Part shown: piece after piece, positions 1,795-20,720 of the stretch
Layout of the letters: each line of letters begins with the position of its first letter
How positions within the stretch are numbered: position 1 is the stretch's first letter
Assembly: GCA_004292955.1 (NCBI GenBank)
Contig: RDXX01000039.1
Span: 1 to 64,000, forward strand
Direction: 5' to 3'
Length of the DNA stretch: 64,000 bases
Source: Oscillatoriales cyanobacterium
Lineage (GTDB): Bacteria > Cyanobacteriota > Cyanobacteriia > Cyanobacteriales > Microcoleaceae
The notes under the pieces: model-generated
Databases searched by the model: none
The model's input: only the letters and a program-made list of their open reading frames with translations
Told to the model about the DNA's origin: nothing
Program-made: the position numbers and the translations under genes

Positions 1795-2047
1795 TAAGCC
1801 GCTTTTCCTCTATACATCAGCGAACTTTTTTAACTGGATAAAATAGTTATTGGTTATCAGCCATCAGTCATCAGTCATTAGCTAATAGCTGCTGGCTGAA
1901 AGCTGATGACTTTTTAGTTTATTTCTTCAGACATAGATACTGGTTATTTCCCCAGGCAGATATGGTTTCTATCAATCTCAGCCACAATCAATGCTTAGGT
2001 GAAAGATTGTTAAAAATAAAACCAACTCTCAAAGGAAAGGAAAAGCT

Positions 2048-2671: not shown

Positions 2672-2705
2672 AAGTTTGGTGGGACAATCAAACTTCCGGT
2701 TCATG

Positions 2706-2731
2706 AAAGCACTTTTTCAAGGTGCTTTTTT
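2706..2731 (+). terminator. Intrinsic terminator after the membrane protein gene
   Basis: Stem AAAGCAC (2706-2712) pairs with GTGCTTT (2722-2728) around a 9-nt loop and runs into a T tract. It lies 35 nt after the stop codon on the same strand. Confidence 0.75.
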
Positions 2732-2836
2732 ATTGGGTGAATTTGTGTATTCTTCAGTCCGCGAAGGCGGACTTTGTTTGTGTACTAGCGGTTTCAACCG
2801 CCGAGTTTTATTTGTATAATGCGCTTTTTGCTGAGT

Positions 2837-2985
2837 CTAGATCCCCCTAAATCCCCCTTAAAAAGGGGGACTTTGATATCTTCCGGTTCCCCCCTTTTTA
2901 AGGGGGGTGCCAGGGAGATCTGGGCCTAGTCGTCAAACAGTAAATCGATAGTACATTTGACGTTAAGTTGACACTAATGGTACTC
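2837..2985. repeat. Dispersed repeat with GATCCCCCTAAATCCCCC core and TTAAGTTGACACTAATG end
   Basis: Long G/C-tract hairpin (CCCCCTT.AAAAAGGGGG) followed by a tail ending GTTAAGTTGACACTAATG. The same modules recur at 47843-47935, 53962-54150 and 57730-57926, the latter two with recognisable inverted ends. It fills the convergent gap between the membrane protein gene and metH; no gene is seen here. The TAGTGTCAACTT end sequence is the best handle for defining the family. Confidence 0.6.
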
Positions 2986-3001
2986 CGCGCGCACTAATAA
3001 A

Positions 3002-6000: not shown

Positions 6001-6616
6001 CGACTAACATTGTGCCGGTGGCTTCCATTGTGACTGATACCATTAACGGAATCCGCGCACCTTTTTTCTTAAATACTTCTTCAATGGCATTTAATGCTGA
6101 TTTAATTTGCAGCACGTCTTGACAAGTTTCGACTATAAATAAGTCAACGCCGCCGTCATAAAGTCCTTCGGCTTGTTCGGTAAAAGCGGCGGTTAGCGTG
6201 TCAAAATCGATGTGTCCTAAGGTTGGCAATTTGGTACCCGGGCCGATCGATCCTGCGACAAATCTCGGTTTTTCGGGCGTGTCAAATTCTGCTGCGATAT
6301 TCTTGGCGAGTTCAGCCGCCGTTTTGTTGAGATAATAGGCTTTGTCTGCTAAATCGTACTCCGCGAGCACGATGGAAGCAGCGCCGAAGGTGTCTGTTTC
6401 GATGACATCGGCGCCTGCTTCGAGGAATCCTCGGTGCACGATGGCGACGGCTTCCGGCTTGGTGTGCACGAGATATTCGTTACAGCCTTCGTATTCTTTA
6501 CCGCCGAAGTCTTCTGCGGTGAGGTTTTGGACTTGCAGGTTGGTTCCCATGGCGCCGTCGAAGACGATGACTGGGCGCGAGGGGTGGTGGAGTCGATCGA
6601 GAAATTTGCTATTCAT
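3002..6616 (-). CDS. metH: Cobalamin-dependent methionine synthase
   Basis: Transfers a methyl group from methyltetrahydrofolate to homocysteine through B12, in the cytoplasm. At 1204 residues it has the normal family length and domain order. The homocysteine domain (about 10-320) has zinc ligands Cys228 (NCATGP) and Cys294/Cys295 (GGCCGT). The pterin-binding domain spans about 340-610, the B12 cap about 640-730, and the B12 Rossmann domain has the cobalt-ligating Asp735-x-His737-x-x-Gly740. The AdoMet reactivation domain (about 910-1204) has [10 protein letters not shown] at 1147-1156. Oddity: about 30 residues near 1014-1043, holding NSGTGILPV twice, are encoded by a dispersed intergenic-type repeat inserted in frame in the activation domain. 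An Ala/Lys-rich linker (865-905) precedes that domain. No cobalamin riboswitch is visible upstream, where only 90 nt separate it from the divergent gene. Confidence 0.97.
3494..3584. repeat. Palindromic repeat (CACAGGCAAGATGCCTGTG) inserted inside metH
   Basis: Two copies of CACAGGCAAGATGCCTGTG followed by CCACTATT (3494-3520, 3527-3554) and a related GGGTGGGCATCTTGCCCGCCC hairpin lie within the metH reading frame. Their length keeps the frame, and on the coding strand they encode SGTGILPV repeats. A related GACAGGCGAGACGCCTGTTCCACC copy lies in intergenic DNA near 26503-26528. Confidence 0.8.
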
Positions 6617-6706
6617 CAGCGGTAAAAAGACGTAGGTGCTATATATTTACAATTTTATCTATTGTGCAATATTGTCAACAATTATGCGTATGTTGGGGAA
6701 CGACTG

Positions 6707-7273
6707 ATGACTGAAGGATTTAATGCTGCTGACGGTAGTTCGATCGCACCTACGATCTTACCGATCGCCCTGGATAATTGTCAAAATTCTGCTGTGGGCG
6801 CGGCTGTGGGGGCTAAACTGGCGATCGACTCTGAGGGGTTTTTTCGCTTAACTGTTGAGGAATTTTGCGAAAATGCGATCGCGATCGTGAAACGAGTGAT
6901 GCAAAAGGGCGATCGTTTTATTTTACAGCAAGCAGGGAAGGATCTAGCTGCGATCGTTCCCGAAGCAGAGTTTCACAAGATAGATTATCTCATGGAAGAA
7001 CTCAAACCCTCACAATTCTTTCCTGACGAAGAAGCATATTATGAAGATGAGAGAGGAATCCACTGCATTTACCCGGACGAACTTGTAGAAGACTTTGATA
7101 ATATTTTAGCAGATGTCAAGGAATTCGACGAATTATTTGGCTTATTGCCCACTGAGGAAATGGGAGAAAATATTGATATTTTCATGTCTGTAGCTATTCT
7201 CATGTCGATCGATCGTTTTTGGGTACCGGAGTACCTAATCGCCGAGAAATCCCGACTAAAAATGCTATCATAA
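6707..7273 (+). CDS. Protein with a Phd/YefM-antitoxin-like segment and an acidic C-terminus
   Basis: I chose the ATG at 6707 because GGGGA lies 8 nt upstream; a longer frame could begin at a TTG at 6662. About residues 45-105 read like the Phd/YefM prevent-host-death fold: a strand followed by VEEFCENAIAIVKRVMQKGD and then FILQQAGKDLAAIVPEAEF, matching the usual pattern of helix, repressive loop and 'G..lA.ivP..ef'. The acidic C-terminal half (FPDEEAYYEDERG, DELVEDFDNILADVKEFDEL) is unfamiliar. No toxin gene is adjacent: the next gene is a Uma2-family protein 240 nt away. It may be an orphan antitoxin or a regulator. The role is inference. Confidence 0.6.
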   Translation: MTEGFNAADGSSIAPTILPIALDNCQNSAVGAAVGAKLAIDSEGFFRLTVEEFCENAIAIVKRVMQKGDRFILQQAGKDLAAIVPEAEFHKIDYLMEELKPSQFFPDEEAYYEDERGIHCIYPDELVEDFDNILADVKEFDELFGLLPTEEMGENIDIFMSVAILMSIDRFWVPEYLIAEKSRLKMLS

Positions 7274-7274
7274 T

Positions 7275-7410
7275 ACTATTAGTAGGGTGTGTCGCCATTG
7301 AAATACCTCGCATCAGATCGACAATCTCATAGCGACGCACCTGACTATTAGTAGGGTGTGTCGCCATTGAAATACCTCGCATCAGATCGACAATCTCATA
7401 GCGACGCACC
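7275..7410. repeat. Tandem duplication of a 68-bp hairpin repeat
   Basis: Two near-identical copies (7275-7342 and 7344-7410, period 69) each begin with TAGTAGGGTGTGTCGCC and end with ATAGCGACGCACC. The ends of each copy can pair (GGTGTGTCGC with GCGACGCACC). The array begins two bases after the stop of the Phd-like gene. Confidence 0.85.
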
Positions 7411-7511
7411 GGACAAAATACTAAACAACACTTCTTTCCTAACACGGCTGTTTATAACTGCTATAAGTTTGTTCACCTTCGATCGCAAAACCAATACAGA
7501 GGACTCGCAAT

Positions 7512-8183
7512 ATGAATCCGCAAACAATAACCCCGTCTCCTCCCGTACAAGAGCAAATTATCCGAGAGTCAAAAGTTGTTTTGAAAGGCGTTAGCTGGCA
7601 AACTTTTCAAGCGTTGCTTGCTGATGTTGGAGACGATCGTGCGTGGAGAATTGCCTATGACAATGGAGTATTAGAAATCAGAATGCCCTACCAAGAACAT
7701 GAAATGCCTACAGGGATGTTAGAAAGTTTTATTGAAGCCCTAGCAGATGAGCTAGAAATTGAGGTAATGAAACTCCGATCTCTGCTGCTTAAACGAGAAG
7801 ATTTAAGTCGCGCGATCGAACCAGATACCTGTTTCTACATCCAGAATGAAGCTTTAGTAAGAAGCAGAGATATTGACTTGGAAACCGATCCGCCGCCGGA
7901 TTTGGCTGTCGAGTCGGATTACACCAATTCTTCTCTAAACAAATTCGCAATTTATGCAGCTTTGGGCGTTCCAGAAATTTGGAGATACCGCCGCCAAACT
8001 CTAGAAGTTTATCAACTTGTCGATGACAAATACGAGAGTGTTGGTCAAAGTGTAGCTTTTCCATTTTTGCCGATCGCAGAAATACCAGGATTTATCGAAC
8101 AAAGCAGGGCGATCGGACAAAGATCGGCCGTGCGTCTATTTCGGACAAGAATTAGAGAAATTTTGCAAAATTCCAACCTATAA
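7512..8183 (+). CDS. Uma2 family (DUF820) restriction-endonuclease-like protein
   Basis: A 223-residue member of the large cyanobacterial Uma2/DUF820 family, which has a PD-(D/E)XK nuclease fold; its cellular role is not established. Visible signatures are WRIAYDNGVLEIRMP near residue 45, the helix GMLESFIEALADEL, PPPDLAVESD near 127-136 (Asp and Glu as metal-ligand candidates), a conserved NKFAIYAALGVPEIWRY stretch, and the C-terminal VYQL. The usual lysine after the ExD segment is not obvious to me. These genes occur in dozens of paralogs per genome, often near repeats, as here. Confidence 0.88.
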   Translation: MNPQTITPSPPVQEQIIRESKVVLKGVSWQTFQALLADVGDDRAWRIAYDNGVLEIRMPYQEHEMPTGMLESFIEALADELEIEVMKLRSLLLKREDLSRAIEPDTCFYIQNEALVRSRDIDLETDPPPDLAVESDYTNSSLNKFAIYAALGVPEIWRYRRQTLEVYQLVDDKYESVGQSVAFPFLPIAEIPGFIEQSRAIGQRSAVRLFRTRIREILQNSNL

Positions 8184-8220
8184 TAAATGTAAAATTCCAA
8201 CCCATAATAAAATATAATTG

Positions 8221-8342
8221 GGGTGGATCTGAGTTTGGTAAATATGATTGTAGGGGCGAAGCATGACCGCAGTCAATATGAGATTATAACTAATAACTCA
8301 TATACGGTCATGCTTCGCCCTCTTGAAAAACCCGATGCACCC
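8221..8342. mobile_element. MITE with GGGTG(G/C)ATC ends and 8-bp target duplication
   Basis: The 122-bp element is bounded by GGGTGGATC at the left and GATGCACCC at the right. It is flanked by the direct repeat TATAATTG at 8213-8220 and 8343-8350. The core is a hairpin made of GGGGCGAAGCATGACCGCAG and its near-complement ending CGGTCATGCTTCGCCC. No coding capacity. A second copy of the core lies at 27511-27590. Confidence 0.85.
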
Positions 8343-8350
8343 TATAATTG

Positions 8351-8476
8351 GTTCGTAGCCAGGACTTCAGTCCGCATCCAATCCAAGGACTGAAGTCCTC
8401 ACTACAAACCTTTAAGAAGGACTGAAGTCCTCACTACGAACCTTTAAGAAGGACTGAAGTCCTCACTACAAACCTG
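8351..8476. repeat. Three clustered copies of the AAGGACTGAAGTCCTCACTAC repeat
   Basis: The short palindrome GGACTGAAGTCC followed by TCACTACAAACCT occurs three times in tandem here. It recurs, with or without an inverted partner, at 27251-27310, 29371-29437, 45887-45980 and 63629-63688. It occupies the gap between the Uma2 gene and the coiled-coil gene; no gene is seen. Confidence 0.8.
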
Positions 8477-8505
8477 TGAGTCTTAAAAAATATTAAATTT
8501 TTTGA

Positions 8506-9216
8506 TTATTTCTTTCGCATCTTTCTCTGTGAACCTCTTTTAGCCAGGTGCTTAATTTCATTGTCGGCTGGAACATCCACTTGTTCTACAATTTCTAAAT
8601 CCAAAACTTCAACCTCGCCTCCGCTGATTTCTTCAGCTTTCTCAACATCCTGCAAATCCTGCTGATGTTCGATTAACTCCAATCCAAATCCAGAATCTAA
8701 AATCGGCAATTCATCGATTTCTTCACTAATTTCAGATTCTCCAACCCAATCGTCAATTTCCGCCACTAAATCTTCCTCAATTTCTTGACTAATTTGAGTT
8801 TCTCTAATTTCCTTCTCTACTAGCTGCACCGATAACTGCTGGTTTTCCCTTGACAAATGCTCAATCTGAGTCGATTGAATTCTAAGCTGTTCATTCAAAA
8901 CGCGAATTTCTCGGTTTTGCTGCTGAATCATTTCTTCCCCATCAGCAATAGTTCGATTTCTCTCTAATATGACTTCATTTCTAGTTTCTAATTCCAAAGC
9001 GCTCATTGCTGCTTTAATTACATTATAAAAATGCGGCTTAGACACATCAACTTGTTTAGCATTATGGCGACTTTTCCCCAAAAGTCCAATCTTTTCTCCT
9101 TGCTTAACAGCCAACACAAAACCTTGATGATTTTTAATTTTTAATTCTTTGACAAAATCAACTTGAACTAAGCTGCAAATATATCTGTGACAGTCATAAT
9201 AAAATTCTGCTTTCAT
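8506..9216 (-). CDS. Coiled-coil protein with acidic C-terminal half, unknown function
   Basis: A 236-residue protein not recognised. Residues 1-75 form a compact, possibly nucleic-acid-binding or adaptor-like domain (FVLAVKQGEKIGLLGKSRHN, SKPHFYNVIKAAMSALE). Residues 75-145 are heptad-rich (NRTIADGEEMIQQQNREIRV and onward), predicting a coiled coil. The remainder is strongly acidic, ending in a basic tail (KRGSQRKMRKK). It stands alone with repeat-rich DNA on both sides. Codon use looks like the rest of the window. Confidence 0.65.
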   Translation of the reverse strand: MKAEFYYDCHRYICSLVQVDFVKELKIKNHQGFVLAVKQGEKIGLLGKSRHNAKQVDVSKPHFYNVIKAAMSALELETRNEVILERNRTIADGEEMIQQQNREIRVLNEQLRIQSTQIEHLSRENQQLSVQLVEKEIRETQISQEIEEDLVAEIDDWVGESEISEEIDELPILDSGFGLELIEHQQDLQDVEKAEEISGGEVEVLDLEIVEQVDVPADNEIKHLAKRGSQRKMRKK

Positions 9217-9413
9217 GAAAAAGCACCCCTTTCTGCTACAGTCCCGCAGAATTATAGCACGAAGAATGTTAAATCTCGAACAAAATCTCTAAACCTATGG
9301 TGCGCGCCGATCGCCCTACCATAATTTCAAATGTATGCGATGTCAAGAGTTGTTGCTAAAATTAATCAAAAATCAATAATCGATCGCCATTTCAATCAAA
9401 ACACCAGCTAATC

Positions 9414-9550
9414 CAATACTTCGGACAGTTTTTTAACGACTCTGTAAGCGTATCGCGAGTAAGCCCTGGCATTTTTAATGATTTTTTGAAACGAGCGGGC
9501 GAGACTTAAAGAGAGATACTAGATTAGATCTAAAACTGTCCGAAGTATTG
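9414..9550. mobile_element. Small MITE with exact 19-bp terminal inverted repeats
   Basis: CAATACTTCGGACAGTTTT (9414-9432) is repeated in exact reverse complement at 9532-9550. The element is flanked by the direct hexamer CTAATC (9408-9413 and 9551-9556). The right-hand copy overlaps the stop codon of the next gene (9555-9557 on the minus strand). The 137-bp element has no reading frame of note. The rest of the 9217-9554 gap shows nothing else. Confidence 0.85.
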
Positions 9551-9554
9551 CTAA

Positions 9555-10229
9555 TCAATAATAAATAATATCTTCCTCCAACTCAATCACACCCGCAATC
9601 AACTTCCAACAAGGATCGTCTCCTTCCCGATCATCAGGCCGCCAAGGCATACTTAAACTGATGGTTAGCAAACAAGCTTTTTCCGGGCGATAACCCAAAT
9701 CCAACCTTCTAGTAAACACCGGATCGGTAATTGTTGCCGTCAATTTTTGATTGTATGCAGTTACAATAGATCCTTCCCATTTATTCCCACTTTCAAATCT
9801 TTTGCCGACCATTCTTACGGTAAATTTTACTGCTTTTATTAATTGTAAAGTAATGCGCTCTTCCCTTGGCAAAGACTGCATATAATCTACTGTCACAAAT
9901 CGCAAATCATTATGCAAAATATATGCCCGATCGCGGAAATATTTCAGTAAATATGCAGAAGAAACCTTCCCGACGTGCTGCCATTTTCCCGGAATAATAG
10001 ACAGATTTTCACACTCAAAACCAAAATCCGGCCCCGTATTTGCCAAAGGAATGTCTATAACATCTAATAATGCCGGTTCCAGTCTATTTATCTGCCGTAT
10101 TTCTTTAGGAATCTGGCCGTCTGGTAAGTCGGAAATTGGACGTACCCAGTTACCATTAATTTCATTAATTCCAGCGATGCACCTGTCACCTCGTTTCCAG
10201 GAATTAGCAAGGCAAATTATCCGAGTCAT
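9555..10229 (-). CDS. Third gene of the DUF488 cassette, possible dual OB-fold protein
   Basis: A 224-residue protein not firmly recognised. The start MTRIICLANSWKRGDRCIAG and the following NGNWVRPIS, together with a beta-rich C-terminal half (MVGKRFESGNKWEGS, LTATITDP), resemble proteins I remember being called dual-OB-domain proteins that accompany DUF488 genes; this is unverified. It is the last gene of a three-gene minus-strand run behind two DUF488 genes (70-nt gap), which suggests a common role on nucleic acid. Conserved-looking Trp, Arg and Cys residues occur in the first 35 positions. Its stop codon overlaps the target duplication of the MITE at 9414-9550, so its 3' end may have been touched by that insertion. 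Confidence 0.55.
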   Translation of the reverse strand: MTRIICLANSWKRGDRCIAGINEINGNWVRPISDLPDGQIPKEIRQINRLEPALLDVIDIPLANTGPDFGFECENLSIIPGKWQHVGKVSSAYLLKYFRDRAYILHNDLRFVTVDYMQSLPREERITLQLIKAVKFTVRMVGKRFESGNKWEGSIVTAYNQKLTATITDPVFTRRLDLGYRPEKACLLTISLSMPWRPDDREGDDPCWKLIAGVIELEEDIIYY

Positions 10230-10299
10230 TCGATTTTAGATGTTAGATTTTAGATTGATTCCTGTATTTATGGCGTACACTCCCCGCCAGCTATGCAAT

Positions 10300-10752
10300 T
10301 CAAAGATGACTAATTTTGACATTTTGCCACTTATCGTTGAGATATTCAGCAACTAAACGGCGGTGACAGTTGTGAGGCTGTGGTTCGCTACAAAGCAGAC
10401 ACCCGCAGTCTAGAATATCCGGCGAAATTTTTTGCTCAATTTGTCGATCGCGAATCAACTGCAAAAACTGCTGTTCATAAACATCCCAATCTCCCTTTTT
10501 CTTTTTATAATCATCCAGAATATCTTGAGTCGGCGCTAAATCCAGAATATGCACATACTTAATATTACCAATTGTCCGCAAAAAATACTCTAAATCTTTC
10601 CGCTTAGCAAAACCAGCTAACTGGGACACATTATTCAGCCGCGTATCTATCACCCTGCGGACTCCGGCTTTTATCAAAGTATCAAAAAATTGCTCGGCGC
10701 TTTTTTGAGTAAAACCAATTGTAAATAAATTAATTGCTTTCTTTGGTGACAT
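10300..10752 (-). CDS. DUF488 family protein (second copy of the cassette)
   Basis: DUF488 proteins have unknown biochemical activity. This copy shows the family hallmarks FTIGFTQKSAEQFFDTL, RVIDTRLNN, and the cysteine motif LLCSEPQPHNCHRRLVAEYL near the C-terminus. I chose the ATG at 10752, which has GGAAA 8 nt upstream; a start at 10770 (MDWKSL) is also possible. It overlaps the end of the upstream DUF488 gene by 23 nt or more, so the two are translationally coupled. It differs from the first copy in having TRLNN in place of DVRSHPFS, so the pair may form a heteromeric complex (inference). Confidence 0.85.
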   Translation of the reverse strand: MSPKKAINLFTIGFTQKSAEQFFDTLIKAGVRRVIDTRLNNVSQLAGFAKRKDLEYFLRTIGNIKYVHILDLAPTQDILDDYKKKKGDWDVYEQQFLQLIRDRQIEQKISPDILDCGCLLCSEPQPHNCHRRLVAEYLNDKWQNVKISHL

Positions 10753-11356
10753 AAGCGATTTCCAATCCATAACGATAATAAGCTGTTTCTAAATCAACTA
10801 TTTCATCTTTAACTTGAGGTTCTAATTCAAACAAGCTTAACTGAATTGGCTGATTATTTTTTTTACCTTTGTTAAACTTGCTCAAAAGTCTTGCTTCTAC
10901 ATCCTGATGCGATTCTAAACTGCCATCGGACAGAATATGATTTATTTGCAAATTAAATTCTTTGAGTTTGTGGCAAACTAAAATAGTGCGGTGACAAGTA
11001 ATCGGGTCTTTTTCCGCACACATTAAACTGATTTTATAATTGGTGGCGCCTTTGAGCAAGCGTTGAATTCCTGAGGCAAATAGAGGAGTCGCTGCTATGC
11101 GATCGTACAAAGCTTTACCGCTAGTATCGTAACAGCTTAAGTCTTCCGGCCTCGCACCCAATTCTTGCCCCAAAAAAACATATTGAATGCCCGCAGCAGA
11201 CAGAGAAGCTGTAATTTCTGATTTATTAAAATGAGGTAAATAGCGGCTGAAAGGATGCGATCGCACGTCCGCAACCGCTGTAATTCCGTGTTGTTCCAAT
11301 AACAAAATAAACGCTTCAATACTGTGATTGGAGTGTCCGATCGTAAATACTTCCAT
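10730..11356 (-). CDS. DUF488 family protein (first copy of the cassette)
   Basis: A 208-residue member of DUF488. Visible signatures are the start MEVFTIGHSNHSIEAF, ADVRSHPFSRYLPHFNK, FLGQELGARP, and the conserved CAEKDPITCHRTIL segment. The invariant Cys, Glu and Cys-His-Arg suggest a metal or thiol centre (inference). A C-terminal extension (about 155-208) is particular to the longer versions. It is the promoter-proximal gene of a compact three-gene unit with a paralog and an OB-like protein. The family is often carried in accessory regions and is commonly found as adjacent genes; the function is not established. Confidence 0.88.
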   Translation of the reverse strand: MEVFTIGHSNHSIEAFILLLEQHGITAVADVRSHPFSRYLPHFNKSEITASLSAAGIQYVFLGQELGARPEDLSCYDTSGKALYDRIAATPLFASGIQRLLKGATNYKISLMCAEKDPITCHRTILVCHKLKEFNLQINHILSDGSLESHQDVEARLLSKFNKGKKNNQPIQLSLFELEPQVKDEIVDLETAYYRYGLEIAYVTKESN

Positions 11357-11417
11357 TGCTTCGATCTTACTATTAAGTATTCAGCTTGCAGGCTAGATTT
11401 TCTGTAGTCTGATAGTT

Positions 11418-11771
11418 TCAACCAGCAGGTTTCTTCACCAACTTTTGAATCCCAATTTGCAAACCCAGCAGCATTAAGCCGACTGCCGCCAGCCCAAAAA
11501 CGCCCGTACCTAAAGCCACCATCCCCACGACTAAAGTTCGCACGGCGACACTAATTTTAAGCACAGTAATATTGGTGGAATGCAGCGGCTTGCTAGCAAA
11601 ATTTAGAGCGATCGACATAGTTAGCGAATACAAACCAAAAGCGAACACACTCGCGATCAGCGAACCTGTCACGCACCGCAAAACAGTCGGCTGCTTGGGA
11701 GATGCAGGCGTTGCATCCCGCGCCGAACTTAGAGGTTCAGAAGTAGAATTTGGATTAGTTAAATCAGCCAT
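11418..11771 (-). CDS. DUF3082 family membrane protein
   Basis: A 117-residue protein with a disordered, Pro/Ser/Thr-rich N-terminus (1-28) and two hydrophobic spans near 32-57 and 75-108, the second ending in a Lys-rich tail (QIGIQKLVKKPAG). This matches the DUF3082 family of cyanobacteria and chloroplast-bearing plants, as I remember it; function unknown, probably a thylakoid or plasma-membrane protein. It lies upstream of the DUF488 unit on the same strand, 61 nt away, and could be co-transcribed by chance. Upstream DNA carries TTTTAGA repeats. Confidence 0.75.
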   Translation of the reverse strand: MADLTNPNSTSEPLSSARDATPASPKQPTVLRCVTGSLIASVFAFGLYSLTMSIALNFASKPLHSTNITVLKISVAVRTLVVGMVALGTGVFGLAAVGLMLLGLQIGIQKLVKKPAG

Positions 11772-11976
11772 GGCGATTTTAGATTTTAGATTTTAGATTT
11801 TAGATTTCTGGTTAATTTACCAAAACTAAAATCGGTGTTTCATGTCATTTTATCAGTTCTGCGATCTTAATAGACTCCGCGCAAAGTTAGATTCATTTTT
11901 GCCGTTAGCGCAGCCCTCGGAGAGGATCGCCCCCACTGACATTTAACCGACGATCGCGATCGCACCCGACAGCGAG

Positions 11977-12954
11977 TTACACCCTCACAATCGGCGGTTT
12001 CGTATCATTTCCTTCCGAAAAAATCCGAATCCCAGTATTGCTAAACTTTGCTACCCAAAAATCCAAATCGGGAGAAGCGATCGCACTTTTCACCCGTTCC
12101 AGAACCTGCTGAGCCTGCTCTGGAGACTCACACAGCGCAAACACCGTCGGCCCGGAACCGGACATCATCGCGCCCAAAACCCCCGCCGACTCAAAAGCCT
12201 CCCGCAATTGCAACACCTGCGGGTACACGGGTAAAGCAACTTTTTCTAAATCGTTGTGCAGCAATTGACCAATTTTCGATCGATCTTTTTGGGCGATCGC
12301 CCCCACCATCGGCCCTGAATGTAGCCTTTGGCGGCGACATTCCAAATCTTCTGGTGCACAATAGGAACTACTGAACTGTTTGCGATAAGTTTGATACGAC
12401 CATGCAGTAGAAATACTGAGATTGCGAAACTTCGCCAGCACCACACAAAAACCTCCCAAATCAGGCAGGGGAGAGAGTTTATCCCCACGACCTGTTGCCA
12501 GAGCCGTACCTCCTCCAATGCAAAAAGGCACATCAGAACCCAGAGTTCCCCCCAACTCTTGCAACTCCGATTGAGTGAGTCCCAATTGCCACAGCAAGTC
12601 CATCCCGACTAAAACTGCGGCAGCATTTGCAGAACCGCCGGCGAGCCCCGCGGCCACCGGAATCTGCTTGTGAATGGCAATCTCGACTCCGCCGTATTTC
12701 GCCAAAGCATCTGGAAATTGCTGCGCCAACAAATCCGCCGCGCGATAAGCCAGATTATTCTTGTCCGGCGGGACTTGGGGGTGATCGCAGCGCACGCGGA
12801 TCGTGTCCGTTCCGATCGCGCGCAAGTCAATTCGATCGGCCAAATCTATGCTTTGAAGCACCATCGCCAGTTCGTGATATCCGTCGGGGCGATCGCCTAT
12901 TATCTCCAAATACAGATTGATTTTTGCTGAAGCTAGCAGAGAATATGAACGCAT
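11977..12954 (-). CDS. ispE: 4-diphosphocytidyl-2-C-methyl-D-erythritol kinase
   Basis: GHMP-family kinase of the MEP (non-mevalonate) isoprenoid pathway; phosphorylates CDP-methylerythritol in the cytoplasm. At 325 residues it has the family length. The N-terminal SAKINLYLEI (9-18) is the substrate-binding start, PVAAGLAGGSANAAA (99-113) is the ATP-binding GHMP loop, and SGSGPTVFAL (about 265) is the third GHMP motif. In many cyanobacteria ispE follows rsmA, as it does here on the same strand. However, 445 nt containing a pseudogene on the other strand now separate them, so the old operon may be broken. Confidence 0.96.
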   Translation of the reverse strand: MRSYSLLASAKINLYLEIIGDRPDGYHELAMVLQSIDLADRIDLRAIGTDTIRVRCDHPQVPPDKNNLAYRAADLLAQQFPDALAKYGGVEIAIHKQIPVAAGLAGGSANAAAVLVGMDLLWQLGLTQSELQELGGTLGSDVPFCIGGGTALATGRGDKLSPLPDLGGFCVVLAKFRNLSISTAWSYQTYRKQFSSSYCAPEDLECRRQRLHSGPMVGAIAQKDRSKIGQLLHNDLEKVALPVYPQVLQLREAFESAGVLGAMMSGSGPTVFALCESPEQAQQVLERVKSAIASPDLDFWVAKFSNTGIRIFSEGNDTKPPIVRV

Positions 12955-13047
12955 AGGTGATTAAGCCGCGGGTGAAAGAAACCCCTGGTTGAAGAAATTA
13001 ATTGACACCAGTCAGACTACATTTTCTCACAACTCAAAGGAAATATT

Positions 13048-13227
13048 ATGCAGGAAATGTGGAAAACTTTTTTTAGTTCGGGGTCATTTATTCCCCACGG
13101 GCGCTGTTATCGATGGCAGACCAAGTTAGTCTGGCTGCACGTAGCCTCAGATTCAATAATTGCGATCGCCTATTTCTCGCTCCCGATTACACTGCTTTAC
13201 TTTATTTCCAAACGCGAAAGTCATTAG
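13048..13227 (+). pseudogene. Truncated N-terminus of an ethylene-receptor-type sensor histidine kinase
   Basis: The 59-residue frame starts at an ATG with AAAGGAAA upstream and reads FIPHGRCYRWQTKLVWLHV then SDSIIAIAYFSLPITLLYFI. This is the first transmembrane helix region of cyanobacterial ETR1-like hybrid histidine kinases (typical pattern PHGhCYlW..LvWLH..SDslIAlaYfSIP..L.YF). The protein ends at SKRESH, where the family normally continues with two more helices carrying the Cys and His copper ligands, and then GAF, kinase and receiver domains. The cut coincides with repetitive CATTAGTCATTATTCATCAG DNA. The rest of the 12955-13399 gap holds no other gene. Confidence 0.75.
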
Positions 13228-13399
13228 TCATTATTCATCAGTCATGTTTTGCGAGTAAACAAGAGTTCGCGAACGTTATTAATCATCAGTTATCAGTAAA
13301 CTTATTGCATAAATCTTTGATTGATAGGCGAACCGCAGATGCAACCGACGATGCAACGCAGATTATTTCCAGATAAGAAAGCTTGGGAGTGCAAGGATT

Positions 13400-14221
13400 C
13401 TAGTCATCGGAAAACAAATTATTGCTCAAATTTACCCATTGCGCCACGCTTAAATCTTCAGCGCGAGATTGAGGATTGATCTGTAACTTTTCTAACAATT
13501 GAACGAGTTTATCTAAATCCACAGATCCTTTTAAATTATTACGCAGCATCTTGCGCTTGCTGCCAAATCCTAACTTGACTAAAGTCTCTAAATAACGCGG
13601 ATTAACTGCTGGCGTTTCTATCACTCGGGGCAGCAGCCGCACCACGGCGGAATCGACTTTTGGCGGCGGATAAAAGTCTCTAGACGGCACATCGCAAATT
13701 AACTCGCATTCTGCTAAATACTGCACCCGCACCGACAAAGCGCCAAAAGCTGTCGAACCAGGTTTAGCGTAAAGCCTTTGGGCTACTTCTTTCTGCACCA
13801 ACAGGACGATCGCATCGAAGGGTTTCGCAACCGGCACAGATATCGTTCCCAGCAGTTTTTGCAGGATGGGGCCGGTGATATTGTAGGGAATGTTGGCAAC
13901 AACTTTATTGGGATCTTGGAATTTGGGAAAGGCGATTAGTTCAGCCTCTAAATCCATTTCCAGAAAATCGCCTTGTAGCAGTAAAAAGTTGTCGTTTTTG
14001 CCTAGTTGCTTGGCGAGTTTTAGGCACAAATCTCGATCGATCTCCACCGCAACAACAGACTCAGCCGCAGCCAGCAAGGGTCGAGTCAGAATCCCAGTGC
14101 CCGGCCCGATTTCCAGGACGCGATCGCCCGACAAACTCGCCGCTTTGACAATCTTATCTAAGGCTTTCTCGCTTTTGAGCCAATGTTGAGCAAACTGTTT
14201 CCGGGGTCTGGTCGATCGCAT
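13400..14221 (-). CDS. rsmA: 16S rRNA dimethyladenosine transferase
   Basis: Methylates two adjacent adenines near the 3' end of 16S rRNA during 30S maturation. In the longest frame (ATG at 14263) the SAM-binding loop EIGPGTG is at 51-57, the acidic VEIDRDL ends strand 2, and the catalytic motif NIPYNITGP starts at residue 124, followed by the C-terminal helical domain with SKRKMLRNNL. I chose the ATG at 14221 (MRSTRPRKQFAQHWL), which begins at the family's usual start; the upstream ATG adds 14 residues of no family character. It lies upstream of ispE on the same strand. Confidence 0.95.
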   Translation of the reverse strand: MRSTRPRKQFAQHWLKSEKALDKIVKAASLSGDRVLEIGPGTGILTRPLLAAAESVVAVEIDRDLCLKLAKQLGKNDNFLLLQGDFLEMDLEAELIAFPKFQDPNKVVANIPYNITGPILQKLLGTISVPVAKPFDAIVLLVQKEVAQRLYAKPGSTAFGALSVRVQYLAECELICDVPSRDFYPPPKVDSAVVRLLPRVIETPAVNPRYLETLVKLGFGSKRKMLRNNLKGSVDLDKLVQLLEKLQINPQSRAEDLSVAQWVNLSNNLFSDD

Positions 14222-14380
14222 TTTTTGAATTCTTCGAGAAATCTTAGCCTGCCATTCTATCACAACCCCATATTTTTTCCCAAGCTAAAGTTATGTTTAT
14301 TTTTGTAAACAGGGGTTGAATTCAGCAAAAAACTTGGGCATCATAAAATAATTAACGATAAAAAATAAGTTTATTTCTTC

Positions 14381-14436
14381 CCAATTACCAATTACCAATT
14401 ACCAATTACCAATTACCAATTACCAATTACCAATTC
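14381..14436. repeat. Heptamer tandem array (AATTACC) directly upstream of galK
   Basis: About eight perfect copies of AATTACC end seven bases before the galK ATG (14444). The array takes the place where a ribosome binding site would be, and no Shine-Dalgarno motif is visible. It belongs to the STRR class of cyanobacterial heptamer repeats. Confidence 0.9.
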
Positions 14437-14443
14437 CCCAAAA

Positions 14444-15523
14444 ATGAAATTCCAACGAGTATTTGGTACATTACCCCAAACCCAAGCCAGCGCGCCCGGA
14501 AGAGTAAATATGCTGGGCGAACACACAGACTACAACGATGGATTTGTACTTCCGACTGCGATTGGGCAGCGCACAACAGTACAAATTGGCTTCAGCAGCG
14601 ATACCCGACACCATTTTTATTCAGCCGAATATGACGAACTCATAAATTTTTCAGACGACGATACCATACCGCAAAAATTCGTCAGTTATATCTGTGGCTG
14701 CATCAGACTTTTAGAAAAAGAAGGGTACAAAATACCACCAATAAATCTCTACATTACCTCCGATGTGCCGATCGGCGCCGGTTTGTCCAGCAGCGCCGCT
14801 TTAGAAATAGCCACCCTCAGAGCAATCCGCGCGCTGCTGAACCTCCCCCTAGACGACGTGCGGCTGGCTCAAATCGGACAGCTAACCGAAATCCGGTATG
14901 CCGGGGTGAACTGTGGCATCATGGATCAAATGGCGTCGAGTTTAGCAGACACCAAAACGATGCTATTTATCGACACCCGCAGCCTCGAATACCGCGCCCT
15001 ACCTTTTCCCACAGGCACAGAAATTTTAGTCATTGACAGCGGTGAAAGCCACAACCTAGCAGCCGGAAGTGGCTACAACCAGCGGCGTGCTGAGTGCGAA
15101 GAATCCGCCCGGATATTGGGAGTTAAAGCCCTTAGGGATATCAGCGATCCCAAAGCAGTGGAAGTATTGCCAGAACCCCTAAAAAGGCGATCGCGCCACG
15201 TAGTCACCGAAAACAACCGCGTGCTGCAAGCTGTAAAATCTTTACCAGCCGAACGTTTCGGCGATTTAATGAATGCTTCCCATGCGAGTTTGCGCGACGA
15301 CTACGAAGTTTCGGTGGTTGCAGTAGATGCCTTGGCGGCAATCTTGCAGTCAATCCCCGGAGTCTTCGGCGCGAGGCTGACGGGCGGAGGTTTTGGCGGT
15401 GCTTGTGTTGCACTGGTTAAGAGTGGGAAAGCCGATGTTATTGCATCAGAGGCGATCGATCGTTACCACCGCGCGGGTTATAATGGTCGCGTTTTAGTTC
15501 CCGAAGTTCAAGTTAATTCTTAA
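14444..15523 (+). CDS. galK: Galactokinase
   Basis: GHMP-family kinase that phosphorylates galactose to galactose-1-phosphate (Leloir pathway, cytoplasm). Diagnostic motifs are the galactokinase signature GRVNMLGEHTDYNDG starting at residue 19, the ATP loop VPIGAGLSSSAALE (108-121), the catalytic-Asp segment CGIMDQMASSL (near 160), and GARLTGGGFGGACVAL near the C-terminus. Its 359 residues fit the family. The start at 14444 follows a heptamer repeat array instead of a ribosome binding site, so copy-number changes there could alter expression (inference). The last 11 bases overlap the convergent cupin gene. Confidence 0.93.
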   Translation: MKFQRVFGTLPQTQASAPGRVNMLGEHTDYNDGFVLPTAIGQRTTVQIGFSSDTRHHFYSAEYDELINFSDDDTIPQKFVSYICGCIRLLEKEGYKIPPINLYITSDVPIGAGLSSSAALEIATLRAIRALLNLPLDDVRLAQIGQLTEIRYAGVNCGIMDQMASSLADTKTMLFIDTRSLEYRALPFPTGTEILVIDSGESHNLAAGSGYNQRRAECEESARILGVKALRDISDPKAVEVLPEPLKRRSRHVVTENNRVLQAVKSLPAERFGDLMNASHASLRDDYEVSVVAVDALAAILQSIPGVFGARLTGGGFGGACVALVKSGKADVIASEAIDRYHRAGYNGRVLVPEVQVNS

Positions 15524-15887
15524 TCGCAGAACTATCTCCCGACACCGAAGGCCACCGCACAGTCACGATAACCGAATCCTCCTCGGCCGACCAATAATGA
15601 GGCACTCCCGGCAGCCAGAGAGCATAATCTGCTTCACAACACAGCAAGATTTCTTGCGAAGGAAATTGCAAGCGAAACCGCCCTTTTACCAGAATAGAAA
15701 GCGTAGTTGCTGCCGCATTTACCGCCCACTGAGTCCTGCAATCTCCGGCCGAGTGAACGCCCCATTTTACCTCTAACGCAGAAGTCGATCGCGCGTCATC
15801 TTCGGGCATTATAAAGTGACCCGCAAACCAACCGCCGCGACTTGCACCTTCAGCACCCGCATTTCCAAAAATCACTTCAGGTGGCAT
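15513..15887 (-). CDS. Small cupin-fold protein
   Basis: A 124-residue protein that reads as a single cupin barrel: WGVHSAGDCRTQWAVN, then TTLSILVKGRFRLQFP, ADYALWLPGVPHYWSAE and VTVRWPS. One clear His (GVPHYW) and one upstream (GVHSAG) could hold a metal, but the full two-motif cupin set is not complete. Similar stand-alone proteins are common in cyanobacteria, with no known role. It converges on galK with an 11-nt overlap, so the two mRNAs are antisense at their ends. Confidence 0.65.
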   Translation of the reverse strand: MPPEVIFGNAGAEGASRGGWFAGHFIMPEDDARSTSALEVKWGVHSAGDCRTQWAVNAAATTLSILVKGRFRLQFPSQEILLCCEADYALWLPGVPHYWSAEEDSVIVTVRWPSVSGDSSAIKN

Positions 15888-15983
15888 CAGTTAATAATCT
15901 AACAAACAAATATTTTAAGTAACACAAACTCAAAGGTTCGTAGTAAGAACTTTAGTCATAAACACAACAGGCAATTGATCTTT

Positions 15984-16051
15984 AGGTACGTTGTTGCGCT
16001 TCAGCGCTCTTTGATAGATCTAGCATAGCGCCCAAGCGCAACAACGTACCT
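15984..16051. repeat. Long hairpin repeat with 18-bp perfect arms
   Basis: AGGTACGTTGTTGCGCTT (15984-16001) pairs perfectly with 16034-16051. A related hairpin with 28-bp arms lies at 39599-39666. It is noncoding. Confidence 0.85.
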
Positions 16052-16721: not shown

Positions 16722-16947
16722 GGGAGCATCTCAGTTTTTCATTTATAGCGGTTCTCAGAAAGATTCGCGGATGTTGTTGGGCTTGGGCCCTCTTGGTTTA
16801 AGGGTTGTGTGGGCTGTCAGTTATACCTCATCTTTTTGAGAAAGGCTATATATAGATAGTGCTGTCCCCGCTCGCGAGTTGTACAATACGCGAGCGGGGA
16901 CAGCACTATAATAAAAAAAATGCTTTTTACAAAAGTGAGATGCTCCC
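16722..16947. mobile_element. GGGAGCATC-type MITE, apparently carrying a nested second element
   Basis: The ends are GGGAGCATCTCAGTTTTT (16722) and AAAAGTGAGATGCTCCC (ending 16947). The right part holds the hairpin AGTGCTGTCCCCGCTCGC...GCGAGCGGGGACAGCACT seen in the copy at 33101-33216. About 100 bp around 16747-16850, bounded by TATAGCGGTTCTCAG and TTTTTGAGAAAGGCTATA (roughly inverted), interrupts the left arm and looks like a second small element. No clean 8-bp target duplication is seen at the outer ends, so this copy may have been rearranged. Its right end is fused to the RAYT gene. Confidence 0.65.
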
Positions 16948-17267
16948 ACATGAATCGCCTCAAACCGTCCCTGAAAAAGTGAACCAACTCTTTGATAGCG
17001 TTTATTAATAGCCTTAGTATAAGACAGAGTAAATGCCTGCATCAGGTTGGAAAAACGATTGGTGTTCAGGTGAACTAATAAATGATAGTGGTTCGGTATC
17101 AAACAATAAGCAAGAATATCGACACCATGAGTAATCAGATGGTTTCTTAATTGGCGTAAAAAATAAATATAGTTTTCTCGCTCAAAAAATATCAACTGAC
17201 GGTTATTACCTCGGTTATAAACATGGTAGTAATTACCCGCTTGCAAGATAACTTGGCGACGTGGCAT
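16821..17267 (-). CDS. REP-associated tyrosine transposase (RAYT, IS200-like Y1 family), 3'-truncated
   Basis: The N-terminal 107 residues are a RAYT: MPRRQVILQAGNYYHVYNRG, then the divalent-metal motif IPNHYHLLVH (the HUH-type H-x-H), FSNLMQAFTLSYTKAINKRY and VGSLFQGRFEAIHV. At this point the family continues with the helix carrying the catalytic tyrosine (typically ...LSRYIHLNPV). Here the frame instead reads GASHFCKKHFFYYSAVPARV, which is encoded by the end and hairpin of the MITE at 16722-16947. The catalytic Tyr helix is therefore lost and the enzyme is probably inactive. RAYTs process REP palindromes, and an exceptional palindrome array starts 49 nt upstream of this gene. Confidence 0.88.
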   Translation of the reverse strand: MPRRQVILQAGNYYHVYNRGNNRQLIFFERENYIYFLRQLRNHLITHGVDILAYCLIPNHYHLLVHLNTNRFSNLMQAFTLSYTKAINKRYQRVGSLFQGRFEAIHVGASHFCKKHFFYYSAVPARVLYNSRAGTALSIYSLSQKDEV

Positions 17268-17315: not shown

Positions 17316-17804
17316 AGAAACCGGGTTTCTACGAAAAATCTGGTGAGGTTGTTTAAATTATCGCAGAAACCCGGTTTCTTGAACTAAGCGCGTGGAACTC
17401 AGAAACCGGGTTTCTCGCGAAAATCTGGTGAAGAGGCGTAAATTCTCACAGAAACCCGGTTTCTTGGGCTCAGCGCGGGAACTCAGAAACCGGGTTTCTA
17501 TGAAAAATCTCGTGAAGATACGAAAATTCTCGTAGAAACCCGGTTTCTCGGACTCAGCGCGTGGGACTCAGAAACCGGGTTTCTCGCGAAAATCTCGTGA
17601 AGAGGCGTAAATTGTCGTAGAAACCCGGTTTCTTGGACTAGGCGCGTCGAGATTCAGAAACCGGGTTTCTTCAGATCATCTCATGAGGAGGCGTAAATTC
17701 TCGTAGAAACCCGGTTTCTCGGACTCAGCGCGTGGGACTCAGAAACCGGGTTTCTGCGTAAAATCTCATGAGGAGGCGTAAATTACCGTAGAAACCCGGT
17801 TTCT
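17316..17804. repeat. Six-unit array of paired palindromes AGAAACCGGGTTTCT (BIME-like)
   Basis: Twelve copies of a 15-bp near-palindrome alternate between AGAAACCGGGTTTCT and its reverse complement AGAAACCCGGTTTCT. Starts: 17316, 17365, 17401, 17450, 17485, 17534, 17570, 17619, 17656, 17705, 17741, 17790. Every within-pair step is exactly 49 nt and every between-pair step is 35-37 nt (unit of 84-86 bp). Spacers are similar but not identical and are not CRISPR-like. A degenerate seventh start follows near 17835. One solitary unit lies at 41733-41798. The array sits between the RAYT gene and the Roco gene; no gene lies within it. Confidence 0.95.
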
Positions 17805-17984
17805 TGGACTAGGCGCGTCGAGATTCAAAAACCTTACTCAAACCTCACGAATCGCCAAAATATTCGTGTTATTTTGTAGTGAGATTAAGGAATATTCAAA
17901 ATCAAATCATGTCTCAAGATCGCCCTTTCATCTCAAAAGGCGATGATCGAACTTATATACAAAAATCAAAATAAGGAATTGGCA

Positions 17985-20720
17985 ATGTCAGGAACTGAGG
18001 GCGATCGGAAAGCATATCAGCGCATTGGAAAAGCGCGGCGAGAGGGAGCAAAAACACTCAATCTTAGCGATCTGGAACTGACGAAACTGCCAGAGGCGAT
18101 CGCCTCCCTCACTCAGTTGGAAAAGCTTTACCTTCACAACAACCAACTGACAAAACTGCCAGAGGCAATCGCCTCCCTCACCGAATTACAACAGCTTTAC
18201 CTCCACAACAACCAACTGACGAAACTGCCAGAGGCGATCGCCTCCCTCACCCAGTTGCGTGGGCTTTACCTTTCCAGTAACCAACTGAGGGAACTACCAG
18301 AAGCGATGGTCTTCCTCACCGAGTTGCGACTGCTCTACCTCCACAACAACCCTCTCAATTCTGACCTCGCCGCCGCCTATGAACAAGGCACTAAAGCCCT
18401 TTTGCAATACCTACGAGCAAAGGCAGAAGCACAAATCACCCTGAACGAAGCCAAGCTGATTTTAATCGGCGAAGGCGAGGTAGGCAAAAGTTGCCTCCTC
18501 GGAGCATTACGAGAAGACGAATGGCTAGAAAGTCGTCCCACCACTCACGGCATTGAAATTAAGCCAGTCATTGTCACCCATCCTGAAACCGACACAGAAA
18601 TATCCCTCAATGGTTGGGATTTTGGCGGTCAACCGGTTTATCGACCCACACACCAGTTGTTTTTCAGTGCACCAGCCGTGTATCTAGTGGTGTGGAAGCC
18701 ACGGGAAGGCCCCCAGCAAGGCTTTGTCAAAGAGTGGATTACCCTAATCAAGCATCGGGAACCAGATGCCAAAGTGCTAGTAGTCGCCACCCACGGCGGC
18801 CCCGGACAGCGACAACCCGACATTGACAGACAGGAAATTTGCGATCGATTCGGCTGCGATACGGTGCTTGGCTTCTTTCATATCGACAGCAAACCTGACA
18901 CTCAGAACTCCTGCAACGGCGTGGCAGAATTAAAAAGTGCGATCGCTAATGTCGCCGCCTCTCTTCCCGAAATGGGACGTTCGGTTCCCGCCAAATGGCA
19001 GCGAGTGCGGGAAATCTTGCAGACAAACGACAAAGCCTATCTGCCCTACGATGAAGTTATTGCCATCTGCACTCAGCACGGAATCGATAAAGAACAAGCA
19101 GAACTTTTCCTTCGTATTTCCCATACCTTGGGGCATATCATCCATTACCACTACGATCCAATACTGCGGGATATTGTCATCCTCAAACCCGACTGGTTGG
19201 CCAAGGCAATTAGCTTCGTACTTGATGATGAAACGACCCGCCGCCGCAACGGTTTAGTAGACTTTGAGCATCTGGGTGAATTATGGAGGAATCCCCCGTT
19301 TCCAGGCGAGAACGGCTATCCGAAAGAACTACATCCCATCTTTCTGAAGCTGATGGAACGCTTCGATTTATCTTACCGCGTGGTGCTCGACCCAACTAAA
19401 CCCAGCAATACGAGCTTGATTGCTCAACTCGTACCCGATACACGCCCGGAATTGTCCAATTGGGGACAGCAACCGGAAGCCGGAGACAGACAACAAATAC
19501 AAATCTGCCGCATTGTGGACGATCGAGGACAACTTGCAGTAGCAGAAGGATTGTTTTACCAGTTGATTGTGCGCTTGCACAAATACTCACTAGGGCGATG
19601 CAATTACGAAAAAAGTATCCATTGGCAACGCGGTTTGATGCTTGACGACGACTACAACGGTCGGGCATTGCTGGAATATATTGACAGTGATGTCAAAATC
19701 ACCGTGCGGGCGGCTTATCCAGAACGGTTCTTGTCTTATCTCACGGCAGAGATTAAATGGCTAGTCGAGAATTTCTGGGAAGGATTGCGATGTAATGTGA
19801 TGGTTCCTTGTATTGCGCCTTGTGGTAAAAATCTGCCTGGAAACGCGCTATTTGAAGTAGAGAAACTAATTGAAAGCAAAAAAGATAATCGTCATGATTA
19901 TCCATGTTCACTCTGTAATAAATGGCAAAACATCGATTCTTTGCTGAATAACGCACCGATTGCTCAACCCCCATCTCAAGAAATCGGCATTCAGCAGTTC
20001 CGAAATATGTTCAAAGACGAGCTAAAAATCATCCGCGAAGATTTAGTGATTTTCGATAGTCGAAATCAAGAACGATATCAGTCATTGTCTCAGGATCAGC
20101 GAATCATTCTCAGTAAAGTCGATGAAGAATTTGCGTCACTGATGCAAATGCTCACCGATGAAGCGAAAGATGGCCCGCGCCTGTTTAGTTTCAAGCCCGT
20201 CGATCCCAAGTTTTTCGATCGCCCAAAATGGATTAGTACAAAATTGCAAATAACCCTCTGGTGCGAACACTCTCGTCAACCGCTTCCCGCCTTAAATCCT
20301 CACGACAAGCAGAAAGGAGTTTATGAATTGGAAGTATCGCGCCAATGGTTTACCATAGCAGCCCCATATCTCAAAATTTTGACCGGAACCCTGAGTCTAG
20401 TCTTACCTGTCGCAGCCTTTGCCACCAAGTTCATGCTAGACGAAGCTACCTACAAAGGCATTGAAGAAGAACTCGATTTAGGACAAAAAAGCATCGAATC
20501 TACCTTGAAAGGTAGCGATTTAGCTACTAATTTGTCTGGCGAAAATGACATCCCAGATTGGCAACAGGGCGACTCAGCAATCATGGCGAAAGGCTCGATT
20601 TTGCGAGAATTACACGCGCTGCTAAAAGCAAAAGATCCTGGTTTTGGTGGCTTAGTTCGGGTGCAGAATAGACGGCGCGAATTTCTTTGGGTTCACGAGC
20701 AGTTTGTAGATGAGTATTAA
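17985..20720 (+). CDS. Roco-family protein: LRR, Roc GTPase, COR
   Basis: I place the start at the ATG 17985, which has AAGGA 7 nt upstream; the frame is open from 17943, and the numbering below uses that longer frame. Leucine-rich repeats of about 23 residues (LYLHNNQLTKLPEAIASLTQL pattern, 36-140) are nearly identical at DNA level. A Roc (Ras-of-complex) GTPase follows, with P-loop GEGEVGKS (176-183), a THGI switch I (201-204), WDFGGQ switch II (225-230) and an ATHGG motif (282-286) in place of N/TKxD. A COR-like region spans about 350-620. Cys623/627 and Cys655/658 could form a zinc site. A hydrophobic segment (about 805-830) and a helical C-terminus end the protein. Bacterial Roco proteins are GTP-regulated dimers, mostly of unknown role; association with stress or defence is only a hypothesis. 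Confidence 0.9.
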   Translation: MSGTEGDRKAYQRIGKARREGAKTLNLSDLELTKLPEAIASLTQLEKLYLHNNQLTKLPEAIASLTELQQLYLHNNQLTKLPEAIASLTQLRGLYLSSNQLRELPEAMVFLTELRLLYLHNNPLNSDLAAAYEQGTKALLQYLRAKAEAQITLNEAKLILIGEGEVGKSCLLGALREDEWLESRPTTHGIEIKPVIVTHPETDTEISLNGWDFGGQPVYRPTHQLFFSAPAVYLVVWKPREGPQQGFVKEWITLIKHREPDAKVLVVATHGGPGQRQPDIDRQEICDRFGCDTVLGFFHIDSKPDTQNSCNGVAELKSAIANVAASLPEMGRSVPAKWQRVREILQTNDKAYLPYDEVIAICTQHGIDKEQAELFLRISHTLGHIIHYHYDPILRDIVILKPDWLAKAISFVLDDETTRRRNGLVDFEHLGELWRNPPFPGENGYPKELHPIFLKLMERFDLSYRVVLDPTKPSNTSLIAQLVPDTRPELSNWGQQPEAGDRQQIQICRIVDDRGQLAVAEGLFYQLIVRLHKYSLGRCNYEKSIHWQRGLMLDDDYNGRALLEYIDSDVKITVRAAYPERFLSYLTAEIKWLVENFWEGLRCNVMVPCIAPCGKNLPGNALFEVEKLIESKKDNRHDYPCSLCNKWQNIDSLLNNAPIAQPPSQEIGIQQFRNMFKDELKIIREDLVIFDSRNQERYQSLSQDQRIILSKVDEEFASLMQMLTDEAKDGPRLFSFKPVDPKFFDRPKWISTKLQITLWCEHSRQPLPALNPHDKQKGVYELEVSRQWFTIAAPYLKILTGTLSLVLPVAAFATKFMLDEATYKGIEEELDLGQKSIESTLKGSDLATNLSGENDIPDWQQGDSAIMAKGSILRELHALLKAKDPGFGGLVRVQNRRREFLWVHEQFVDEY

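Follow-up and report, generated by a model that had tools for sequence, protein, structure and literature searches.

A palindrome array beside a truncated RAYT gene in a filamentous cyanobacterium, probably the upstream half of a dead REPtron-like locus

The window, i.e. the whole stretch of 64,000 nucleotides analysed here, is contig C145 sequence from an Oscillatoriales genome of 7.29 Mb (G000), which is Microcoleus-like since the nearest named relatives of its RAYT belong to Tychonema and Microcoleus. At 17316–17804 the window carries twelve palindromes of 15 bp, AGAAACC[G/C]GGTTTCT. They are odd, with seven pairing bases on each side of a central G or C, and the G-type and C-type strictly alternate along the array. 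Within pairs the step is always 49 nt (6/6); between pairs it is 36, 35, 36, 37 and 36 nt. All coordinates and steps of the original prediction were reproduced, including those of a solitary unit with a step of 51 at 41733–41798. Read pair by pair, the array consists of six long-loop hairpin units: unit 1 at 17316–17379 (arms 17316–17330 and 17365–17379, loop of 34 nt), unit 2 at 17401–17464 (arms 17401–17415 and 17450–17464), unit 3 at 17485–17548 (arms 17485–17499 and 17534–17548), unit 4 at 17570–17633 (arms 17570–17584 and 17619–17633), unit 5 at 17656–17719 (arms 17656–17670 and 17705–17719) and unit 6 at 17741–17804 (arms 17741–17755 and 17790–17804). TRF describes the array as 6.1 copies of an 85-bp period, and the six units are mutually 80–94% identical. 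Allowing up to 3 mismatches and counting every palindrome once per strand, the motif matches the window 29 times; 100 shuffles averaged 2.3 matches and never reached that number.

The array is directly adjoined by the gene of a large LRR-Roc-COR (ROCO-type) protein (17943–20720, + strand), whose LRR part gives several-fold matches in some relatives. Long runs of 7-bp tandem repeats, of a kind common in filamentous cyanobacteria, are found at 41919–42058, 47721–47824 and 61947–62016, one of them near the dispersed unit at 41733. At the site orthologous to this single unit of the same palindrome family, 0, 1 or 2 units are present among the 21 strains listed.

The RAYT gene predicted 49 nt from the array does have its ORF start at that distance (17267), but the RAYT is truncated. 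It is a broken half-gene and not in working order: positions 16932–17267 (− strand) encode residues 1 to about 107–112, 81–82% identical to the intact 188-aa RAYT on contig C141 of the same genome (82% over residues 1–112, the last five being unmatched). The fragment retains the HuH motif NHYH and GSLFQ; the catalytic-tyrosine motif YIHLNP is absent, so the local protein should not cut. The ORF (16821–17267) continues past the RAYT fragment into unrelated repeat sequence. A 92-bp repeated element with an internal inverted repeat overlaps the broken end (16856–16947). Copies with 91–97% identity exist in G000, G001 and G019, further copies (81–91%) at other loci of G000, and one copy lies at the Y1_Tnp locus L026. 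The inverted repeat, GGGGACAGC, fits the TIRYT repeat consensus GGGGWSAS of PMC3733652.

The complementary half of the gene, residues 106–188, is located on contig C132 beside three palindromes, and is interrupted by a 108-bp repeat of which another copy (89% identical) lies at 16744–16851 in the window. In G000 the two halves are on different contigs, so the link between them rests on a sister genome, G016. There, a single contig (C32) holds part of the N-half adjoining nine palindromes and the C-half beside three palindromes, ~15.5 kb apart and on opposite strands, with pieces of window region 1634–16051 between them in kept order. The N-half of G016 is shorter still, its DNA match starting at window position 17103, about residue 55. 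From the distance and the opposite strands of these halves, an inversion apparently split one array-RAYT-array locus; the simplest reading would be an inversion in the common ancestor with one end inside that locus, and the 108-bp repeat, found at both broken halves, is a possible cause of it. The array at 17316–17804, which adjoins the RAYT N-half in G016 too, is accordingly read as the 5' flank array of the broken locus. The flanks of window and G016 are 94–97% identical on the left and about 88% on the right. The array units of G016 and of the window are 0.85 alike, the same value as among window units, and the period has changed (84–86 in the window, 93–94 in G016). With conserved flanks and changed units and period, the array is neither frozen nor brand-new.

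The intact C141 protein possesses both the HuH motif and the catalytic tyrosine. In 39 of 39 aligned RAYT relatives NHYH and Y119, the tyrosine of YIHLNP, are invariant, and FQ is kept in 38. The signature NH[YF]H, FQ, Y[IV]HLNP is that of RAYT subclass 2.1 (Bertels group 1). Above the Pfam cut-off only Y1_Tnp is detected, in three intact relatives including the C141 RAYT, and the NCBIfam REP-associated transposase model scores 79.7 bits, just below its cut-off of 80. The AF2 model of the RAYT (pLDDT 87, pTM 0.85) has as its best PDB match 4er8, a RAYT bound to a REP hairpin (E 2e-8), which is also the sole PDB match by sequence at E<=1.

The palindrome is not restricted to the array. The exact 15-mer occurs 169 times in the genome and its reversed control pattern 0 times; with up to 2 mismatches the counts are 679 and 11. 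Pair-step figures rest on the 162 of the 169 palindromes placed on contigs (two complementary listings plus the window). Among these, all 51 G-to-C neighbours within 150 bp are separated by a step of 48–52 nt, whereas C-to-G steps within the same distance vary from 26 to 63 nt; three G-G and three C-C neighbours also occur. Since one step is constant and the other varies, the element is the G-to-C unit of 63–67 nt, and the linker is variable. The 49/50-nt step is thus the norm of the whole family and nothing particular to this array. The original prediction saw in the exact spacing a sign of selection or very recent expansion; recent expansion is not marked by it, as the same spacing recurs throughout the genome and identity among the six units is only 80–94%. 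It had also considered that the motif might be common genome-wide with random spacing: common it is, random in spacing it is not.

Together, 168 exact copies fall into 72 loci: 122 have an exact partner at 46–53 nt, 20 a degenerate partner and 26 no partner. The 61 close pairs at a step of 47–52 comprise 53 G-to-C, 6 C-to-G and 2 like-like pairs. The family is therefore made of inverted pairs with a fixed spacer, as REPINs are. The copies mostly avoid long frames: 13 of 168 lie inside stop-to-stop frames of at least 150 aa, against 59% of random points, and 39 of 168 inside frames of at least 120 aa, against 68%. Three sites of dispersed units (on C115, on C1 and at 41733) were compared with relatives, and none showed a clean insertion opposite an empty site in a sister strain. 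The units on C115 and C1 are old and common to relatives, so no insertion ends are readable there; the 41733 site has 0–2 units and no sharp ends. At the C115 site, the REPIN unit is adjoined by a repeat of ~150 bp that is present very many times in the genus (L251, about 540–690); it is missing from G001, where the flanks are contiguous, and is itself likely an insertion.

RAYT and hairpin are paired. The largest clusters among those listed contain 14 (C141), 12 (window), 8, 6 and 5 copies, and the two largest flank RAYTs of the same type, which bears out the expectation of RAYT-linked palindromes in inverted pairs. The intact RAYT on C141 has 14 palindromes upstream and 4 downstream. Among the 13 Y1_Tnp loci of the genome (flanks to 1.5 kb) the motif is present at only two, the window (12) and C141 (4 + 14); at the other 11 none was found, even at 2 mismatches. 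Among 148 genomes (G000 included), 31 have RAYT matches and 86 motif copies. Together, 30 homologous RAYT loci (of 38 places found; the C141 locus included) carry 286 exact copies, where the motif density of the individual genomes predicts 3.2, an enrichment of about 90-fold. At least one exact copy is present at 23 of the 30, so that homologous RAYTs of other genomes have the motif beside them too; of the remaining seven, four have near-copies and three have none. The RAYT lies beside gltB in 7 of the 30 short-flank loci and in 5 of 14 named loci, probably the same genomes, and from this recurrent position it looks inherited in place.

Copy number was also compared with RAYT presence. Relatives have up to 1442 exact copies per genome, and a count of at least 10 is reached by 22 of the 23 genomes whose RAYT match is full or near-full, by 6 of the 8 whose match is broken and by 45 of the 117 that have none (classes sorted by hand, "none" meaning no match at E<=1e-20, and related genomes being counted as independent). 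Within the genus the median is 169 copies in the 7 genomes with a full match vs 80.5 in the 22 others (one-sided p 0.012, kinship ignored). Some motif-rich genomes have no RAYT match at E<=1e-20, among them G102, G147 and G067 with 800, 666 and 636 exact copies respectively. The palindrome family can thus persist without a RAYT, or with a different one.

We compared arms, loops and flanks at three orthologous dispersed sites over 20 ortholog pairs, taking the better-matching unit where a strain has two. The differences amount to 4/600 in arms, 107/690 in loops and 329/2621 in flanks (p-values treat related genomes as independent). About 38 arm differences would be expected, a figure roughly halved to allow for reference arms having been selected as exact. 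Adding the decayed site L157, whose second arm was scored at whichever of five offsets fitted best, brings the arm differences to 11 of 630, which is less than half the rate seen in the flanks. All loci examined together yield 375 distinct long-loop units, of which 269 are exact in both arms and 56 changed in both; 30 arm changes are compensated, against 12.2 in shuffles (maximum 22 in 2000), and 186 are uncompensated. As compensated changes exceed the shuffles, arm–arm pairing, beyond the 15-mer itself, seems to be kept. Units with compensated changes, AGAAACCGGGTTTTT pairing with AAAAACCCGGTTTCT, are seen near L200 orthologs (L289 781–848, L291 2655–2822, L293 1689–1754).

The hairpins differ between RAYT clades. 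Around 80 named RAYT loci, the best 80 of the matches listed (700-bp flanks), 28 have AGAAACC copies (three of them a single one), 29 another family and 23 none, a label which includes loci with a one-sided hairpin. The 29 comprise 17 ACTTCT, 5 AGGTTT, 2 GGTTCT, 2 non-palindromic CGGGTTTCT and 3 others. At 35 of the 80 loci the gene is bracketed by similar hairpins, against 0 of 400 plain letter shuffles; almost all of these hairpins have a 3-nt loop, and AG opens 66 of their 70 arms (cut at 15 nt). Other RAYT clades carry other perfect hairpins with 15-nt arms and a 3-nt loop. The AGAAACC family itself exists in two forms: a short form of 33 nt (C-to-G step 18) in Okeania, Iningainema, Roseofilum and Calothrix parasitica, and a long-loop form (G-to-C step 48–52) in Microcoleus, Kamptonema, Planktothricoides and some Nostocaceae. 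Given the short-loop form, the 15-mer of the window is one hairpin arm. A RAYT may also have some 10 units in tandem on one of its sides (L061).

Hairpin and enzyme co-evolve. On a RAYT tree of 77 rows (four of the 80 loci, with proteins <150 aa, omitted and the intact C141 RAYT added) the hairpin label needs 24 changes vs 41.7 when shuffled, a value as low being reached in 0 of 200 shuffles; the AGAAACC label needs 8 changes. Two types may coexist in one genome: in Symploca SIO2E6 both main clades are represented by one RAYT, which in either case has a hairpin of its own (L070, L089), and the MAG MO_167.B47 has two AGAAACC-type RAYTs (L076, L084) and a broken RAYT beside ACTTCT hairpins (L130), which is outside the tree and is nearest by BLASTP to the ACTTCT clade. 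ACTTCT hairpins number 142, 31 and 18 in three genomes with their RAYT clade, and 0 or 1 in seven others tested. RAYTs of the same type with long hairpins on both sides are also found in Chloroflexota (L125, L132; Anaerolineae / Anaerolineales), which suggests transfer or an old origin; at three other Chloroflexota loci (L085, L111, L118) no both-sided hairpin was found.

Our preferred reading, which we hold to be very probable, is that a dead REPtron-like locus has left the array as its upstream half, and that the hairpin units serve as cognate substrate for a RAYT bearing the subclass-2.1 signature. It builds on the pairing of RAYT and hairpin and their co-evolution, on the hairpin geometry, on the two complementary gene halves and on the arms conserved at three dispersed sites. 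In the proposed mechanism each 64-nt unit, whose two 15-nt arms pair perfectly around a 34-nt loop, would act as a hairpin element; the RAYT would bind the arm–arm hairpin on single-stranded DNA (lagging strand), cut and rejoin at the hairpin foot, probably at the terminal CT of an arm, and would thereby spread and maintain the family between genes. Speaking against this reading are the motif-rich genomes without a RAYT match, the RAYT loci that lack exact copies or hairpins, the 8 changes of the AGAAACC label on the tree, the missing GTAG tag, the 186 uncompensated arm changes and the dispersed sites without a clean insertion. The intact C141 RAYT could still act on the window array. For GTAG-tagged systems, PMC8266576 proposes that cleavage at CT is guided by the AG within the tag. 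Every exact arm here has AG at its start and CT at its end, and we propose that guide and cleavage letters may therefore lie in the stem itself. A bolder version of this idea, which we regard as unlikely, is that a cyanobacterial RAYT lineage believed to be REP-less operates an entire superfamily of untagged hairpins (arm of 15 nt opening with AG, loop of 3 nt or about 34 nt) and, by cutting and rejoining single strands, actively holds both arms of each dispersed copy to the same sequence. If so, the arms would stay nearly fixed while flanks diverge by 12% and loops drift, and the opening AG and closing CT of the AGAAACC arm would replace the GTAG guide/CT cleavage pair of known REPs.

Other explanations have to be weighed against the same data. 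That the hairpins are selected regulatory or structural elements of the host (transcript ends, protein or nuclease binding sites), the RAYT being a co-opted binding protein, would account for their position mostly outside long ORFs, for arms that are nearly invariant beside variable loops at three orthologous sites, and for pairing kept by compensated changes. But the ~510 of 679 copies that are not exact (about three quarters) indicate that only a subset is held constant and most sites are not; presence also differs among strains, and no Rfam match reaches its gathering score (14 matches at E<=1, all below), which leaves the earlier suggestion of a structured RNA without a known family. We consider this explanation rather unlikely.

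Quite improbable, in our view, is that the palindromes are a common type of repeat, propagated and maintained through recombination and gene conversion, and that RAYTs just happen to lie where arrays grow. Unit numbers of 0, 1 and 2 at one orthologous site, with tandem duplication, fit it, as do the units of G016, which differ from those of the window as much as the latter among themselves despite conserved flanks, and the many motif-rich genomes without a close RAYT. It does not predict the enrichment at RAYTs, the absence of the motif from the other 11 Y1_Tnp loci, or different hairpins for different RAYT clades even within one genome. A functional array peculiar to this locus, of CRISPR-like, iteron or other kind, would suit the regular spacing and number; the genome-wide count, with a family over 72 loci and 61 pairs at a step of 47–52, rules it out, and the array has a broken RAYT on one side and a Roc-COR protein on the other.

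The system that we prefer, a RAYT with its cognate hairpins, resembles REPtrons (RAYT-REP; TnpAREP of E. coli; Quentin subclasses 2.2, 2.4, 2.5, 2.7 and 2.8) in having a HuH/Y1 RAYT between its own palindromes, a family dispersed between genes in inverted pairs, and 4er8 as nearest fold. It differs by the tag: as the 5' foot, GTAG/GTGG is present at 0 of 122 outer feet of the 61 G000 units and, among the 63 short hairpins of relatives, at 3 of 126 feet. Inner feet read GTAG outward from the loop in 38 of 122 cases, which is not the canonical place. The RAYT also has FQ in place of the W motif, together with YIHLNP. With IS200/IS605 TnpA it shares the HuH/Y1 fold and subterminal hairpins (PMC6006769), but the motif is Y---NP (YIHLNP), not Y---Q, and the RAYT, recurrently beside gltB (7/30), does not look mobile. 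REPINs (PMC8049555) are likewise two inverted REPs and a spacer forming one hairpin unit, with a RAYT kept at one chromosomal place; here, in contrast, each arm is itself a 15-mer palindrome, the element of relatives is a single 33-nt hairpin with a 3-nt loop, and tandem arrays of about 10 units stand on one side of a RAYT (L061).

The strings of the AGAAACC motif (the 15-mer and two shorter ones) gave no paper, and those of the ACTTCT hairpin only papers apparently unrelated by title and the start of the abstract. Small mobile repeats in cyanobacteria were reportedly described by Elhai in 2008. The literature covered, consisting of paper listings and parts of PMC3733652, PMC6006769, PMC8049555 and PMC8266576, contained no report of these hairpins with a RAYT. 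Subclass 2.1, the largest class-2 RAYT subclass, is stated in PMC6006769 to have no REP-like sequences nearby, and our observations bear on this gap: across filamentous cyanobacteria, RAYTs with the subclass-2.1 signature have clade-specific hairpin families. As one genome can hold two RAYT types and hairpin codes and there is no GTAG tag, these systems offer a natural test set for DNA choice by RAYTs, and since arms are conserved in place, the question of what REPs are kept for becomes directly testable.

The nearest published idea is that of the TIRtrons (PMC3733652). They too have a RAYT-like gene (TIRYT), of a group later equated with subclass 2.1, and flanking repeats that can self-complement, in families of dimers or clusters. 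The arms described here are without the GGGGWSAS motif, and up to 1442 exact copies per genome contrast with TIR families termed moderately abundant. RAYTs of subclass 2.1, with its TIRYTs, are given an HTH-like C-terminal tail and a median length of 238 in PMC6006769, whereas the 188-aa RAYT has Y1_Tnp only in Pfam; this does not exclude it from the subclass, because subgroup 2.1.2 is described there as heterogeneous in length and tail. From these comparisons we infer an untagged REPIN/REPtron-like system, in which the RAYT would cleave and mobilize its own hairpins.
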